In this document: piece by piece, positions 45,370 through 50,847 of the stretch
Numbering within the stretch: position 1 is the stretch's first letter
How the letters are laid out: each line of letters opens with the position of its first letter
Assembly (NCBI RefSeq): GCF_021209385.1
Contig: NZ_JAJOIL010000023.1
Location: 1-64,000 of the forward strand
DNA: 64,000 bases
Source of the DNA: Seleniivibrio sp.
GTDB lineage: Bacteria > Chrysiogenota > Deferribacteres > Deferribacterales > Geovibrionaceae
Direction: 5' to 3'
Made by a program: the position numbers and the translations under genes
The notes under the pieces: model-generated
What the model was told of the DNA's origin: nothing
Databases searched by the model: none
What the model saw: the letters and a program-made list of their open reading frames with translations, nothing else

Positions 45370-45620
45370 AAGTTTTTTTGCTTGCGATGTTTTCAGCCGT
45401 ACTTTGCGTATCCTGCGGTTCCGAACCGAAAACTCCTGCCGATGAACTGTTTCTTTCCAAATGTTCAAGATGTCACGGCTCACAGCTTGCACTGGAAAAG
45501 AAAAAGACTTATGAACAGTGGCTTGACACCATCAAAAGGATGGAAAATTTCGGATTGGAAATAAGCGGCGGCGAAAGAAAATCCATCGCAAAATATCTGG
45601 TGGAAAAGAAAAAGAACTAA
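45366..45620 (+). CDS. Small monoheme c-type cytochrome, lipoprotein-like
   Basis: 84 residues. Hydrophobic export signal ending LCVSCGSE, a plausible lipoprotein cleavage site although Cys at -3 is unusual. One CXXCH haem site, KCSRCHG (about residues 33-37), and a later Met (RMENFG) as possible sixth ligand. Small electron carrier of the cytochrome c class I size range on the outer face of the inner membrane. Translationally coupled to the PLD gene (ATGA). Its end overlaps the convergent MFS gene by 4 bases. Confidence 0.85.
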   Translation: MKVFLLAMFSAVLCVSCGSEPKTPADELFLSKCSRCHGSQLALEKKKTYEQWLDTIKRMENFGLEISGGERKSIAKYLVEKKKN

Positions 45621-46777
45621 GCCTCCATCGAACGTATTTTTCTTCCGTTACCGACAAAAGTGCCGCATGTGAAAAGAGTTCCCGCTATGCCTGCCAGTCC
45701 GAAAATGATAAAAACCGACTCTACTCCAAACCATTTGTGTCCGAGCAATATGCCACCGATAAATGACGAAACGGCGAAACTGATATTGATGCATGTATTA
45801 TACATCCCCAGCACATAAGCTTCGTTGCCCTTTGATATCCCTACTGTAAGCGCTATTGACGATGTCTTTGAAAGTGAAGAGAAAAAACCGACCCCTGCCA
45901 TAAGCGTCCAGAACAGGACATCAGATGCGGAAAAGACCAGCACAACAATCAGAAGCGACACCGCAAGCGAAGAAACCGTCATGATAAGCAGTTTGTCGTA
46001 TCTGTCGGTCAGATACCCGCACAAAGGCATACATAGAGCTGAAATCGCGCACATGACCGCCATGGCTAGTCCGATTCTGTCAGCTGTCATATTAAACGAC
46101 GCAGACAGGAATACTGGAAGAAAAACAGAAACGGCTGAAATACCGAAAGTGCGTGTAAAAATGTATATCATCATACTTTTGTGTGCCGAAGAAAGTTCAC
46201 ACGGAACAGGTCTTCTTTCCTGTACGCTGTCATCCGTAAATAATGAAGCAACAATTGCGGCTGTGTTCACCGCCGCAACAAAGGCAAAAAGAGCGCTCGC
46301 ACCGTATCTTTCAGCTATAAACCCGCCTATCGCAGGTCCCGTTGCCAGAGCGAAGTAGAAGACGGTTTCAAATCCGCCGAAAAACCTTCCCATCTTATTT
46401 TCGGGACACTTTTCCCCTATTCCCGCCATTGCCATCGGACGAACCAGCCCCGCTCCCGCTCCATACAGCAGCTGGCAAAGTAACATCCAGCCGACAGAGA
46501 CTGGTGCAACCAGATAACCGATTGATGCCGCCAGACAGAAATAACACCCGAGGCGAATAAATTGACCGCTTCCGAACCTCCCTGCATATCGCCCTCCGAG
46601 ATAACCTGAAACTATTTTCGCAGCGGCATAACCTGCCATGACCCATGCCAGCCCCACCGAACCGCTTATATTCGCTGCCCAGTAGACAGGCAGAAACGGT
46701 CCGGCGGCAGCAGTTCCGGCGGAAACAAAGAGCATTACCGCAAAAAGAGGTTTAAATCTTTTTTCGGTTGGTCTCAT
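45617..46777 (-). CDS. MFS transporter
   Basis: 386 residues with about 12 hydrophobic helices in two halves. First-half loop GGRYAGRFGSGQFIRLG and second-half loop GYLTDRYDKLLIM are the MFS motif A regions; PxxxGPAIGGFIAERYG fits TM5-6. It belongs to the drug/metabolite-H+ antiporter-like group. It starts one base after the tetraheme cytochrome gene and could carry the substrate or product of the flavoprotein. Substrate unknown. Confidence 0.87.
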   Translation of the reverse strand: MRPTEKRFKPLFAVMLFVSAGTAAAGPFLPVYWAANISGSVGLAWVMAGYAAAKIVSGYLGGRYAGRFGSGQFIRLGCYFCLAASIGYLVAPVSVGWMLLCQLLYGAGAGLVRPMAMAGIGEKCPENKMGRFFGGFETVFYFALATGPAIGGFIAERYGASALFAFVAAVNTAAIVASLFTDDSVQERRPVPCELSSAHKSMMIYIFTRTFGISAVSVFLPVFLSASFNMTADRIGLAMAVMCAISALCMPLCGYLTDRYDKLLIMTVSSLAVSLLIVVLVFSASDVLFWTLMAGVGFFSSLSKTSSIALTVGISKGNEAYVLGMYNTCINISFAVSSFIGGILLGHKWFGVESVFIIFGLAGIAGTLFTCGTFVGNGRKIRSMEA

Positions 46778-46778
46778 G

Positions 46779-47144
46779 TCATTTCACGTTCATGTTATTT
46801 TCAAATGCGTGACAGCCATCCTGATTGCAATACAGCTTTGAAGGCTCATGGATGCTGTGGCAAAGGGTGCATCTAAGTTCACCCTGATGCGAATCATGAG
46901 GATTGACCTTAACTTCGTGTCCGTTGTTCTTATATGTTTTTATCTCCCCTCTATGGTCGGCATGGCAGGTTTTACACACGGACGCAGGAGCTTTCTTTTC
47001 GGGAGTTTTTGTCCCATGGCAGTCTTCGCAGGCAATCCCTCTGTCTTTGTGCGCGCCTCTTAGGTCACCCGACCCAGCTATGGCAATTGAACAGATAAAA
47101 GAAAAGACCATGATACAAATAACAGTAAAAAATGCTTTTTTCAT
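46779..47144 (-). CDS. Periplasmic tetraheme cytochrome c
   Basis: 121 residues with a signal peptide (1-23, cleavage AIA-GS). Four haem sites: CEDCH (39-43), CKTCH (57-61), CTLCH (92-96) and CNQDGCH (106-112, a CX4CH site). Additional histidines (H32, H64, H76, H83, H86, H99) can give bis-His ligation. Size and haem number match the haem domain of flavocytochrome c fumarate reductase or a small c3-like donor. It lies 60 bases after the flavoprotein gene, so the two should form an electron-transfer pair. Confidence 0.93.
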   Translation of the reverse strand: MKKAFFTVICIMVFSFICSIAIAGSGDLRGAHKDRGIACEDCHGTKTPEKKAPASVCKTCHADHRGEIKTYKNNGHEVKVNPHDSHQGELRCTLCHSIHEPSKLYCNQDGCHAFENNMNVK

Positions 47145-47204
47145 TTTTTTCTCCTATAAACAGAGGGAGCGGAACTCTCCGCTCCCAATGGTCCCCCCAA
47201 CCAG

Positions 47205-48701
47205 CTATTTAACGGTTGAAATATATTTGCCAGCGTGTTCCCCTGCGATTCTGCCTGAGTTCACAGCAAAGCCTATCGTACTGCCAGCCATAAGCAGGTC
47301 ATAGCTGTCTCCGTACATACCGCCGGCATCATTTCCCACCGCATAAAGACCGTCTATGACTTTTCCGTTTGTTCCGACAACCTGAAGATTTTCGGTAACT
47401 TTCGCACCGCCAAGTGTTCCAAGTGCCGTAGGCATGGATTTGACCGCATAGAAGGGACCTTTTGCAACTGCCTGAATGTATTTGGGATCTTTTGCAAAGT
47501 CGTCATCGTGTTTCTTCTCTGCAAAAGTGTTGTATCTCTCAATCGTTGCTCTCAACACTTTGGGATCAGCACCCATTTTCTGAGCAAGTTCTTCGATTGT
47601 CTTTCCTGAATAAGCGATTCCCTGTTTGATACCTCTGTCAAGCTCGGCATCCAGTTTGGTCAGCTTTGTTTTAACGGGAACCATAACACCGACACCTACA
47701 TCAAGCCCCTGCTGCATCATATAATTTTTGGTGTTTGTATCGAAAACCGCATACATAAGACCGCCGATGCGCTCAAGTGCGTTTCCTGCGAAAGGCCATT
47801 GGAAAATAATCATCTCATCACAAAATCTCTCGCCGTGTGGATCAACCCAAAGATAAGGCTGGCGTGCTGTGGCGATAAGCTGAGAATCTGTCGCCTCCCC
47901 GGGCATACCTGGTCTGTATGACTGAACAACTTCCGTACCTTCCAGTGCGGCACCTGCATCTATCATCATCTGTATGCCGTCGCCTGTCTTCCCGACGTTT
48001 CCGACCGGAACGATATCGGGAAATCTGGTATATTTTTTCAGCATTTCCTTGTTGTTAAGGAATCCGCCTGTGGCTATTACAACAGCTTTTGCGTTGATAA
48101 TGACCTTTTCGCCTTCAACGTCTTCGGCAATAACGCCTGCCGCTTTTCCATCTTTCATGATAATGCTTTTGCCTGCTGTTTCGCTGAGCAGTGTGATATT
48201 AAGCTGCGGAAATTTCGCACGCAGAGTTTCGAGCATGGTTTTGCCTCTGCCTTTAAAAATGTGCCATGACTGAAGACCGCCGGGATAGTTGGCAGTAAGC
48301 TCCTGAAATTCCACACCCTGAGCCTCAAGCCAGTCTATGGTTTCCGGTGATTTGTTTACGAACGCCCTGACAAGTTTGGCATTTGCGCGCCAGTGGCTGT
48401 AGTTCATGATCATTTTGAATGCGTCGTCTTTCAAAAGAACGATATTGCGTTCCTGCTGCATCTTACTTTCAGCGCCGAAAATACCTTCCGAAAATTTTCC
48501 GGTACCGCCGGGAGACGGTTGTTTTTCAAGAACTATTACGCTTTTCGCGCCTGACTGTGCCGCTGAATATGCCGCGGCAGTGCCGGATCCTCCACCTCCG
48601 ACAACTACAACATCGGCAGACATTGTTTTGTCTGCAAATGCGGTGGAAACACAAAACATAAGTGAGAACAATGTGAGAAAGAATTTACGAAATCCACTCA
48701 T
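47205..48701 (-). CDS. Periplasmic FAD-dependent reductase, flavocytochrome c flavin subunit type
   Basis: 498 residues with a Sec signal (1-23, cleavage AFA-DK). FAD Rossmann VVVGGGGSGTAAAYSAA (about 32-48), EKQPSPGGTGKFSEG, and C-terminal GLYAVGNDAGGMYGDSYDL with GSTIGFAVNSGRIAGE. The fold is that of fumarate reductase flavoproteins. By eye, the fumarate enzyme's proton-donor Arg (TTRDK) aligns with IFQWP, its substrate His (HHTMGG) with LGTLGG, and the Arg of NRLGG is missing. The substrate is therefore probably not fumarate. AGGAGG precedes the ATG. Upstream Crp/Fnr gene suggests regulated anaerobic respiration. Confidence 0.88.
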   Translation of the reverse strand: MSGFRKFFLTLFSLMFCVSTAFADKTMSADVVVVGGGGSGTAAAYSAAQSGAKSVIVLEKQPSPGGTGKFSEGIFGAESKMQQERNIVLLKDDAFKMIMNYSHWRANAKLVRAFVNKSPETIDWLEAQGVEFQELTANYPGGLQSWHIFKGRGKTMLETLRAKFPQLNITLLSETAGKSIIMKDGKAAGVIAEDVEGEKVIINAKAVVIATGGFLNNKEMLKKYTRFPDIVPVGNVGKTGDGIQMMIDAGAALEGTEVVQSYRPGMPGEATDSQLIATARQPYLWVDPHGERFCDEMIIFQWPFAGNALERIGGLMYAVFDTNTKNYMMQQGLDVGVGVMVPVKTKLTKLDAELDRGIKQGIAYSGKTIEELAQKMGADPKVLRATIERYNTFAEKKHDDDFAKDPKYIQAVAKGPFYAVKSMPTALGTLGGAKVTENLQVVGTNGKVIDGLYAVGNDAGGMYGDSYDLLMAGSTIGFAVNSGRIAGEHAGKYISTVK

Positions 48702-48718: not shown

Positions 48719-48738
48719 GCAGGGAAAATTTGCCCTGC
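48719..48738 (-). promoter_or_regulatory. Hairpin beside the flavoprotein ribosome site
   Basis: GCAGGG and CCCTGC (6 bp) flank eight bases immediately before the AGGAGG of the flavoprotein gene on the minus strand. It has no U-tail. It could influence translation. Confidence 0.4.
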
Positions 48739-48770: not shown

Positions 48771-48798
48771 GAAAATGTATACGGTGTTACGAATTTTC
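48771..48798. promoter_or_regulatory. Imperfect palindrome upstream of the flavoprotein gene
   Basis: GAAAAT(g)TA and TA(cg)ATTTTC flank eight bases, 28 bases in all. Located between the Crp/Fnr gene and the flavoprotein gene, so a possible operator for that regulator. It is not a consensus FNR or CRP box. Confidence 0.35.
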
Positions 48799-48824: not shown

Positions 48825-49508
48825 CTATTTATTATGCCAATCATAAAGTCCTGTGAACAAAACACAATTTATGACAAAACTTCGGCCGTCTTTTTTTATT
48901 AAATCAGCCTCTATCCATTTTGATATGATTCTGCTCACTGTCACTCTGGTTGTGCTCACCACCATTCCAAGTTCTTCATGGCTCAGTTTAAGAGGCAGTC
49001 TAACCATTCCTTCCGGTTCAATACCGCTTGAGCATATCATTGATTTAAAAAGAGTTTTGAGCCTGTCTTCGGGGGTGAGCGTAAAGTTTGCTATCATCCC
49101 CTCAATATGACTTTCCTGCTTTGCGATGGTGGTTTTAAGAACTGCGTCCATAAGTTCAACGCTGCTTCGCATGTGTGTTTTCAGGATATCGGGCGGAAGA
49201 ACAAGTATTTCCGATTCGCGTTTAGCGACTGTAGTGACATTGACAATTTCACCGGAAAGGCAGGTCAGATCGCCCATAGCACGTCCGGGAGGGATCAGCG
49301 CGAGTACCCTTGGTTTTTCCCTGTCATAGTTGACCATGTACATGCAAAGTCCTTTTTTAAGATAAAAAAGTTTGTTGCACTCGCCGCCGCATTTAAGTAT
49401 CGCATTTTTTGAAAGTTTGCGCAGTCTGCCGTATCTGAAATACAGTTTCTGTACCAGTTCGTGTTCCTGCGGCAGTACCCATGGGAAAGCGTTGAAAACC
49501 TGTCTCAC
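48825..49508 (-). CDS. Crp/Fnr family transcriptional regulator
   Basis: 227 residues. N-terminal cyclic-nucleotide-binding fold (about 25-140), long dimer helix, and C-terminal winged HTH LSHEELGMVVSTTRVTVSRI (about 178-197). No FNR-type N-terminal cysteine set; the cysteines present (CGGEC, about 40-44, and GLC) do not match the known iron-sulfur spacing. The cAMP-site arginine is not evident either, so the ligand is open. Start is GTG with AGGT upstream. It precedes the flavoprotein, cytochrome and MFS genes on the same strand, and is probably their regulator. Confidence 0.9.
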   Translation of the reverse strand: MRQVFNAFPWVLPQEHELVQKLYFRYGRLRKLSKNAILKCGGECNKLFYLKKGLCMYMVNYDREKPRVLALIPPGRAMGDLTCLSGEIVNVTTVAKRESEILVLPPDILKTHMRSSVELMDAVLKTTIAKQESHIEGMIANFTLTPEDRLKTLFKSMICSSGIEPEGMVRLPLKLSHEELGMVVSTTRVTVSRIISKWIEADLIKKDGRSFVINCVLFTGLYDWHNK

Positions 49509-49521
49509 GTTGTACCTAAAA

Positions 49522-50847
49522 CTACCTTATCATCAAGCCTTTAAGAACAGGTGCATGGCGCCCGCAGGAAGGACATGCAAAGTTCATTCCTTTAGCGGCA
49601 GCATCTTTGACCTTCTGCCTGACAGCAGTCATGCTGTCGTTCGGTGATATCCCCGCCTCTTCTATTCTATGCCCCATTACAGATCGGAGCATCTCTTTTC
49701 TGTTCAGCAAATTTCTGTATCCGTTGCTGTTTGCCGCCTCAACAGAAAAAGCCGCTGTTATTCTGTGTCCGCCGACGTATGCAGTCACAGGCGCTATCAC
49801 TACAAACGGATAATTTCTGTCTGGTCGGTTATAGATAACCGTTGACGTAACCGTCGTCACTCTGTCTTTTCGTTCCGGAGCTGTCACAGGCGGCTGATTT
49901 TTCAGTGAATCGTCTATCTCGCGCAGTCTTTTCAGGGCATTGTTCGCCTCTATTGAACCGGGGCTTCTGCGTATCACGGCAAGAAGCTGTTCCTTCTCTC
50001 CGTCCGACGCGGGAGCTGGAGCGGAAACTGTCTGCTGCGTTCTGCCTCTGAAAAACAGGAATTCGCCGTCGTTACCAGACAGCTTGCCGTAAACGGGGGT
50101 CTGTGTACCGGCGGAATAGTCCGACACCTCGTTCTGCACGAACTGTCCGAGTTCGCTTCCTGTCACAAGCCCGTCGCCGTTTGCATCGGCATAACCGCTG
50201 ATACCGTCTATGAAACGCTTACGGAACACACTGTCGTCGGGAACCTGCTGATTCTCAGTACCCGACGCAATGAACTCCCTTGCGGGTCTTGAAAGCATCT
50301 CTGTTTTGAAATCAGGAATTGATCGGAGCGCCTTGAATACCGTACCGGAAAAACAGCTGTCGAAAACGAAAAGCCCATGTCTGGAATCCATTGTTTTTGC
50401 TCTTGATGCAAAATAATCTATTGTAAGCGCGCCTTTTTTAAAACCGCTCAAATCCTTCGCAGGGTCTTTTGCATCCCGCCCGACAACATATCCTGTGCCG
50501 TCAATGGTGTGTCCGTGTCCTGCGAAATATATGAGTATTCTTGCTTTGGGATCATCAGCGTATCTTGATATAAAGTCATCAACGGAAATTCTGATATCCT
50601 GCGCAGTGGGATTTACGGAACGTCTGACATTAAATCCCTGCGCCGTGAGTGCAGCCGCAACAGCATCCGCATCCTGCTTGACGCCAGGCAGTTTAGGCCA
50701 GCCGCCGTTATAGTCTGAAACACCGATCACAAGCGCATGGCTGGAAGAATACATATCATCAGGCGTGTCCGGCATCCGCACCACAGCCCTTTCTGCGGCA
50801 TAAGCCCCGAAAGAAAACAGCAGGACGCAAAACAGAAGACGTTTCAT
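49522..50847 (-). CDS. Secreted caspase-fold (C14/metacaspase-like) protease
   Basis: 441 residues with a signal peptide (1-18, cleavage YAA). The peptidase C14 core spans about 35-270: SHALVIGVSDYN, catalytic His111 in IYFAGHGHTIDG and catalytic Cys165 in FVFDSCFSGTV. An EF-hand-like calcium loop ADANGDGLVTGSEL (about 220-233) is inserted late in the domain. The C-terminal 110 residues are an unrecognised domain ending with CPSCGRHAP. It starts one base after the fliQ stop and so appears to be the last gene of the motA-fliQ transcript; the Crp gene follows 13 bases on. Predicted periplasmic or extracellular. Target unknown. Confidence 0.88.
   Translation of the reverse strand: MKRLLFCVLLFSFGAYAAERAVVRMPDTPDDMYSSSHALVIGVSDYNGGWPKLPGVKQDADAVAAALTAQGFNVRRSVNPTAQDIRISVDDFISRYADDPKARILIYFAGHGHTIDGTGYVVGRDAKDPAKDLSGFKKGALTIDYFASRAKTMDSRHGLFVFDSCFSGTVFKALRSIPDFKTEMLSRPAREFIASGTENQQVPDDSVFRKRFIDGISGYADANGDGLVTGSELGQFVQNEVSDYSAGTQTPVYGKLSGNDGEFLFFRGRTQQTVSAPAPASDGEKEQLLAVIRRSPGSIEANNALKRLREIDDSLKNQPPVTAPERKDRVTTVTSTVIYNRPDRNYPFVVIAPVTAYVGGHRITAAFSVEAANSNGYRNLLNRKEMLRSVMGHRIEEAGISPNDSMTAVRQKVKDAAAKGMNFACPSCGRHAPVLKGLMIR

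Follow-up and report, generated by a model that had tools for sequence, protein, structure and literature searches.

A VprA-like, predicted secreted ene-reductase-like flavoprotein and its cytochrome, transporter and regulator genes in Seleniivibrio sp.

Genes of the locus and the predicted active site

The window analysed here is a stretch of 64,000 nucleotides of a Seleniivibrio sp. contig (NZ_JAJOIL010000023.1), and its minus strand carries four co-oriented genes in the order Crp/Fnr-type regulator (48825..49508), flavoprotein (47205..48701), tetraheme cytochrome c (46779..47144) and MFS transporter (45617..46777), with gaps of 123 bp between the first two, 60 bp between flavoprotein and cytochrome, and 1 bp between the cytochrome stop and the MFS start. 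The 498-residue flavoprotein matches Pfam FAD_binding_2 (PF00890, the fumarate reductase-like superfamily) over residues 30-464 with 206 bits and has no FMN_bind match in the Pfam scan; it is encoded separately from the heme protein, with no fused heme domain. The 121-residue cytochrome, predicted to be periplasmic and probably the dedicated electron carrier, matches Cytochrom_c3_2 (PF14537, 55.5 bits) and contains three CXXCH motifs (CEDCH, CKTCH, CTLCH) and one CX4CH motif (CNQDGCH), so that it is tetraheme provided that the last site binds heme. Direct reading of both sequences finds a hydrophobic N-terminal stretch (residues 1-23 in the flavoprotein) that closes in an Ala-X-Ala type site. 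The transporter matches MFS_1 (PF07690) with 130 bits; the regulator matches HTH_Crp_2 with 38.8 bits and, weakly, cNMP_binding with 28.6 bits against a Pfam cut-off of 27.5, and it appears to have no FNR-type cysteine cluster. Open reading frames and Pfam matches thus agree with the initial annotation, which had described separate tetraheme cytochrome and periplasmic flavoprotein genes accompanied by MFS and Crp/Fnr genes. A predicted operator, CGTAACACCGTATACA, of the form TGTAN-N6-NTACA, lies at 48776..48791 (minus strand), some 90 bp ahead of the position at which translation of the flavoprotein begins.

Two other features were observed nearby. In the stretch that separates the predicted operator from the flavoprotein gene, positions 48719-48738 form an inverted repeat, GCAGGG-N8-CCCTGC. 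Positions 49522-50847, upstream of the regulator gene, encode a secreted-looking caspase-domain protein (Peptidase_C14, 68.5 bits), the neighbours of which are presumably flagellar export and motor genes.

The proton-donor arginine, the substrate histidine and the C4-carboxylate arginine of Shewanella-type fumarate reductase had been judged by eye to be replaced in the flavoprotein, and this judgement holds in comparison with PDB chains of FccA (which, with UrdA, are its best sequence matches in the PDB) and in a joint MAFFT alignment of 75 proteins, comprising the window flavoprotein, 50 related loci, 19 paralogues, the vinylphenol reductase VprA of Lactiplantibacillus plantarum, an Mrd orthologue and three Shewanella rows. 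FccA R402, H365, H504 and R544 correspond to F300, Y262, L427 and Y467, respectively. Both arginines are present in seven of the 75 rows (four paralogues from the same genome, the Mrd orthologue and two Shewanella proteins, hereafter Arg-type), and because these relatives keep both in the joint alignment, the loss is not an alignment slip. An alignment of 11 sequences placed R402 opposite W302 rather than F300 because of a two-residue insertion; neither residue is arginine. Position 300 varies among the relatives (L, E, F, I or G), and position 467 is tyrosine in the other 68 rows, hereafter Tyr-type. Relative to the glycine in the G-N/G-E motif, FccA Arg544, Tyr487 of 3-ketosteroid dehydrogenase (KSTD) and Tyr467 are each at +11, and the corresponding tyrosine of VprA is at +12 owing to a one-residue insertion.

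Conserved candidates for the proton donor of Tyr-type enzymes are Y101, H103, Y463 and D465, with the qualification that the related loci were found by peptide patterns, among them GMYGDSYD and MIMNYSHW, which covered these residues, so that part of the invariance at 101-104 and 463-468 reflects how the loci were chosen; this does not apply to the paralogues, the Shewanella rows and VprA, which were selected independently of those patterns. Four of 54 loci were excluded, three for broken frames (L053, L082, L088) and one for a truncated contig end (L087). The possibility of a dead enzyme was rejected: the FAD-binding glycines and numerous polar residues are preserved among the relatives, and the missing arginines do not imply inactivity because VprA, which aligns over its full length, also lacks them.

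Tyr-type proteins in the genome and across phyla

Tyr-type and Arg-type rows fall on opposite sides of a single branch of the tree (split support 100/99). Tyrosine at 467 is found in 15 of the 19 same-genome paralogues, in VprA and in one of the three Shewanella rows, giving the Seleniivibrio genome 16 Tyr-type and four Arg-type copies; the Tyr-type paralogue L123:10732-12309 carries just one of the two arginines, that at 300. The order of paralogues inside the Tyr-type branch is unsure because many are on long branches, and VprA is itself on a long branch (1.97). Judged from the alignment and the tree, arginine loss characterises the Tyr-type branch as a whole and is not an oddity of one protein. 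The Denitrovibrio orthologue of Mrd groups with the Arg-type proteins and the window flavoprotein with the Tyr-type ones. A separate close relative of Mrd, also Arg-type, is encoded on another contig of the Seleniivibrio genome (L132:2133-3665, contig C22), with a cytochrome match at C22:4072-4335; this copy and the Denitrovibrio orthologue are joined at a common fork by branch lengths of 0.17 and 0.13. Assignment of the window flavoprotein as the methacrylate reductase was rejected, the Mrd-like copy of this genome being located elsewhere.

The genome (2.90 Mb in 42 contigs) was searched for counterparts of each gene, using 20 flavoprotein loci of the superfamily (window included) that with 5 kb flanks make up 6.4% of its length. 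All 19 other matches to the cytochrome lie within this fraction, beside or fused to flavoproteins (binomial p 2e-23, a value that is too small because some matches are gene pieces or fused domains). Similarly, 11 of 12 other matches to the MFS protein are within 5 kb of flavoprotein paralogues (p 9e-13), as are three of four other matches to the Crp/Fnr protein beside such paralogues (p 1e-3). Thirteen loci, the window among them, exceed 285 bits with the VprA model and none passes its cut-off; the paralogue nearest to the window flavoprotein has 51% identity. Among ten neighbour proteins scanned, OprD porins adjoin two paralogues of this genome (L122, L126) and one related locus (L064), and a Phenol_MetA_deg protein adjoins another paralogue (L123). 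By these sequence criteria the window locus is one of about 20 modular cassettes in the genome. The number of fumarate reductase-like flavoproteins, about 20 in 2.9 Mb, is approached among the relatives listed only by G006 and G016 (16 and 17 matches versus 26).

The closest relatives of the flavoprotein are from Denitrovibrio BM704 (74% identity), Desulfofustis (71%) and Propionivibrio (62%), followed by enterobacteria (among them Serratia, Edaphovirga and Symbiopectobacterium) and gut Sutterellaceae at 53-57%. Transfer between phyla is likely because the nearest paralogue has 51% identity and, among 11 genomes listed from the same family, only G011 has a match above 70%. Within approximately 5 kb of the 50 related loci with intact frames there is a homologue of the cytochrome in 19, of the MFS protein in 15 and of the Crp protein in 22. 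Many Sutterellaceae orthologues and the enterobacterial loci have no multiheme gene within 5 kb, which means that a neighbouring cytochrome is not obligatory. Identity between the window MFS protein and its counterparts at related loci is only 24-30%. The Edaphovirga orthologue precedes genes for an NrfC-like 4Fe-4S protein and NrfD, a quinol-oxidising module that would link the reductase to quinol without a cytochrome. In a phage collection 26 records match the flavoprotein, five of them, among the matches listed, at 27.8% identity.

The regulator and its predicted operator

The palindrome was spotted when promoters were read side by side; its best form is TGTAT-N6-ATACA, with the 5-6-5 layout of Crp sites. 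The strict motif was derived from sites seen by eye and a relaxed form, [CT]GTA-N8-TAC[AG], sought from -250 to +30 of the flavoprotein gene, was written later; because both forms were written after sites had been seen, the counts are not a blind test. Of 21 loci that have a close Crp homologue, the window locus among them, 18 carry the relaxed palindrome, versus 0 of 29 that lack such a homologue, a comparison that counts the weak Crp matches of L081 and L089 (22-23%) as unlinked and in which Crp linkage is confounded with clade; in the remainder of these loci the frequency of the palindrome is 0.004 per 280 bp. The comparison within the 25-row clade is fairer, with only five unlinked loci: 18 of 20 Crp-linked loci have the palindrome versus 0 of 5 unlinked loci (Fisher p 4e-4), or 16 of 18 linked loci once similar promoters are removed, and dinucleotide shuffles give a mean of 0.17 of 20 with a maximum of 2. 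Of the 15 linked loci that did not contribute to the strict motif, 12 have the relaxed form as well. In the whole genome the stricter form, GTAWNNCSGTATAC, has a single occurrence, which is at the window flavoprotein gene, compared with three occurrences of a reversed control. The linked clade loci that lack the palindrome are L046, which has the recognition helix but a site only at -358, and L049, in which the helix reads RQSVTE, compared with RV[TS][VI][SA][RK] in loci with the site. At the level of sequence, the conserved palindrome ties the regulator to the reductase gene as a predicted operator, and because of genome-wide co-location together with an operator conserved across phyla, the link of the regulator and the other partners to the flavoprotein is far stronger than neighbourhood alone would make it.

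These data bear on the alternative that the Crp/Fnr gene and its palindrome serve a general redox or cAMP response rather than a dedicated acceptor sensor. Crp/Fnr proteins frequently answer global signals, but the single genomic occurrence of the stricter site, the association of regulator and site with the window orthologue across phyla, and the three Crp-linked paralogues, which have other recognition helices (TTPLTINRI, TTIRTIERL and TTLKTIERI) and no palindrome of this form at their flavoprotein genes, make such a response unlikely.

Palindromes were also observed at two paralogues. Upstream of 5681 in L126, the locus of a Crp-linked paralogue on contig C9, there is a different perfect palindrome, TATAT-N6-ATATA, which is also found upstream of 4989 in L079, the Deferri_01 relative of that paralogue; the sequences of this pair make it seem that regulator and operator diverged together. 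On contig C25 (L127), a perfect TGTATCGTTACATACA site lies approximately 140 bp before a heptaheme-linked paralogue with no Crp homologue close by, and may represent either cross-control by the window regulator or chance.

Predicted function, alternatives and characterised relatives

With moderate confidence, the locus can be assigned a dedicated periplasmic ene-reductase in a modular respiration cassette, the acceptor of which would not be anchored by a carboxylate and is perhaps phenolic or carbonyl-conjugated. Electrons are predicted to pass from the menaquinol pool through a quinol dehydrogenase (a domain of the NapC/NirT family is found in the genome, 48.3 bits) to the tetraheme cytochrome and then to the FAD of the secreted flavoprotein, which would transfer hydride to a soluble acceptor at its C=C bond. 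The arginines of fumarate reductase would play no part in holding the acceptor. Because Tyr467 occupies the position of FccA Arg544 and KSTD Tyr487, the probable acceptor is an alkene of phenolic, vinyl-aromatic or enone-like type and not a simple enoate, with Tyr467 as the likely partner of its phenol or carbonyl oxygen. The Crp/Fnr-type regulator is predicted to bind TGTAN-N6-NTACA in the flavoprotein promoter and probably senses the acceptor; the MFS protein may admit the acceptor to the cell, and such a carrier may travel with the cassette because a cytosolic sensor needs its ligand inside. Of the initial proposal of a dedicated respiratory reductase, the split secreted system, a probably non-fumarate acceptor and the possession of its own MFS and Crp/Fnr genes (by co-location and operator) are retained; the urocanate, methacrylate and cinnamate reductases named as its relatives are not, because UrdA and the Denitrovibrio Mrd orthologue keep the arginines and the nearest family is vinylphenol reductase.

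The possibility that the active site still accepts a carboxylate must be weighed. In a reductase with a moved anchor, an enoate such as hydroxycinnamate would be bound by Arg263 of the motif SYRPG (Y262-R263-P264-G265), which adjoins the old His365 position and is present in 43 of 50 relatives and in all 24 of the nearest clade; enoates are the usual substrates of characterised superfamily members (PMC8238504), and Arg263 in this role could undo the prediction of a non-carboxylate acceptor. However, SYRPG is absent from VprA and from 14 of the 15 Tyr-type paralogues of the genome and is thus not the general solution of the branch, and position 467, the place of the carboxylate arginine in FccA, is tyrosine across the whole branch, so that a moved anchor is considered doubtful. 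An ordinary fumarate, urocanate or methacrylate reductase is highly improbable: superfamily and fold are held in common, but the match to the flavocytochrome c model TIGR01813 (212.8 bits) is below the cut-off of 285.45 that three Arg-type proteins scanned pass at 414-508 bits, both arginines are missing, and the genome already has four Arg-type copies.

The enzyme might instead work in the oxidative direction, as a periplasmic dehydrogenase akin to KSTD, cyclohexanone dehydrogenase or tricarballylate dehydrogenase, which would pass electrons taken from an organic substrate to the cytochrome and the quinone pool. An AlphaFold2 model from 51 sequences (mean pLDDT 90, pTM 0.84) has query-normalised Foldseek TM scores of 0.74 with FAD-bound UrdA, mostly 0.61 with FccA and 0.74-0.76 with KSTD, and by VIA-align its best fold matches include UrdA (Z 41.0, rmsd 3.9), FccA (Z 39-41, rmsd 4.4-6.9), KSTD (Z 37-38, rmsd 3.1-3.7) and cyclohexanone dehydrogenase (Z 38, rmsd 3.4-3.6); the modelled fold cannot choose between reductase and dehydrogenase, and the reaction could run in reverse because KSTD and cyclohexanone dehydrogenase, both dehydrogenases, are structurally as close. 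NCBIfam models of 3-ketosteroid dehydrogenase and TcuA also match, with 120-174 bits, each below its own cut-off. Tyr467 shares its spacing with KSTD Tyr487, although the profile alignment is gapped there; the sequence used as a KSTD-like bridge was the best of the matches to the KSTD model NF005882 in a Rhodococcus plasmid, all of them below the cut-off. In KSTD, Tyr487 and Gly491 drive keto-enol tautomerisation and Tyr119/Tyr318 accept the proton (PMC5348764). The fourth residue past a conserved glutamate is Tyr318 in 4c3x but the unconserved F300 in the window flavoprotein, which therefore lacks an acid of the Tyr318 type; the region of KSTD Tyr119 is too divergent to align. Moreover, the top family match, VprA, is a reductase, and a terminal reductase better suits the multiheme partners and the NrfCD pairing, making the oxidative direction quite improbable.

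If the ene-reductase reading of the window locus is extended to its relatives, it is conceivable, although this broader proposal is tentative, that the Tyr-type branch serves anaerobic respiration of neutral or phenolic alkenes in parallel with the Arg-type carboxylate reductases, by means of interchangeable cassettes found in several phyla and each tuned to a different acceptor, drawing on a reductase, a heme carrier, an MFS protein, a porin and a Crp/Fnr sensor with its own operator. The single-residue switch from arginine to tyrosine that divides the family offers a handle on acceptors outside the carboxylates, and the promoter palindrome, specific to one orthologue, offers a handle for an inducer screen by which the acceptor could be found without purifying the enzyme. 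We know of no activity for any member of the clade of the window flavoprotein, and a literature search linking vinylphenol to flavin, an electron acceptor and anaerobic respiration returned no papers. The acceptor may matter in the gut and in enterobacteria as well, because relatives are found in gut Sutterellaceae and in members of the enterobacteria that include Serratia, Edaphovirga and Symbiopectobacterium. Split clusters of a fumarate reductase-like protein and a cytochrome have been described, 147 of them in 108 genomes (PMC8238504).

Several characterised systems resemble the window cassette in part. Mrd/Mcc of Geobacter sulfurreducens AM-1 is likewise a split flavoprotein and multiheme cytochrome in one operon, with homologues also reported in Denitrovibrio (PMC4427408); in contrast to the window flavoprotein, the Denitrovibrio orthologue is Arg-type, with Arg/His/Arg present and the motifs HHTMGG and NRLGGN retained, and it has a Tat signal (RRGLLQ) and a 7-heme partner, matching the homologue described in PMC4427408. 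FccA and UrdA of Shewanella have the same fold and are periplasmic flavin reductases, and Tyr373 of UrdA is at the His365 position, like Y262 (PMC7921117), but the substrate arginines are intact in both, FccA carries its hemes in the same polypeptide and the N-terminal domain of UrdA binds FMN covalently (PMC7921117). The carboxylate contacts of UrdA are Arg411, His520 and Arg560 (PMC7921117), and the equivalent FccA columns are F300, L427 and Y467 in the window flavoprotein, UrdA itself being outside the 75 rows. Because both keep the arginines, neither UrdA (PMC7921117) nor Mrd models the active site. Cgr1/Cgr2, the cardiac glycoside reductase of Eggerthella lenta, also pairs a PF14537 cytochrome with a PF00890 flavoprotein, and Cgr2 reduces the digoxin butenolide, an alkene that is not a carboxylate (PMC5953540); it differs in that Cgr2 requires a [4Fe-4S] cluster and is predicted to be Tat-secreted and Cgr1 is membrane-anchored, and the window cytochrome scores 19.8 with the NCBIfam model of Cgr1 against a cut-off of 340.

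By sequence, the closest characterised model is VprA, rather than UrdA or Mrd. VprA is a C=C reductase with activity on vinylphenols and a LysR-type regulator, VprR (PMC10295242). Its NCBIfam model (NF053717) is the best for the window flavoprotein, with 386.4 bits, yet this is below the cut-off of 600, which a protein encoded next to a LysR gene on a plasmid of L. plantarum passes with 783.8 bits; the window protein thus resembles VprA in its active site without being a VprA. The identity between the two is approximately 32%, and VprA differs in having neither a signal-like N-terminus nor a cytochrome and in its adjacent LysR gene. Nevertheless, VprA and the window family align over their full length (hhalign E 6e-70), and VprA has tyrosine at 467, lacks FccA R402, H504 and R544, and shares Y101, H103, W146, H147, Q281, N307 and D465 with the window flavoprotein.
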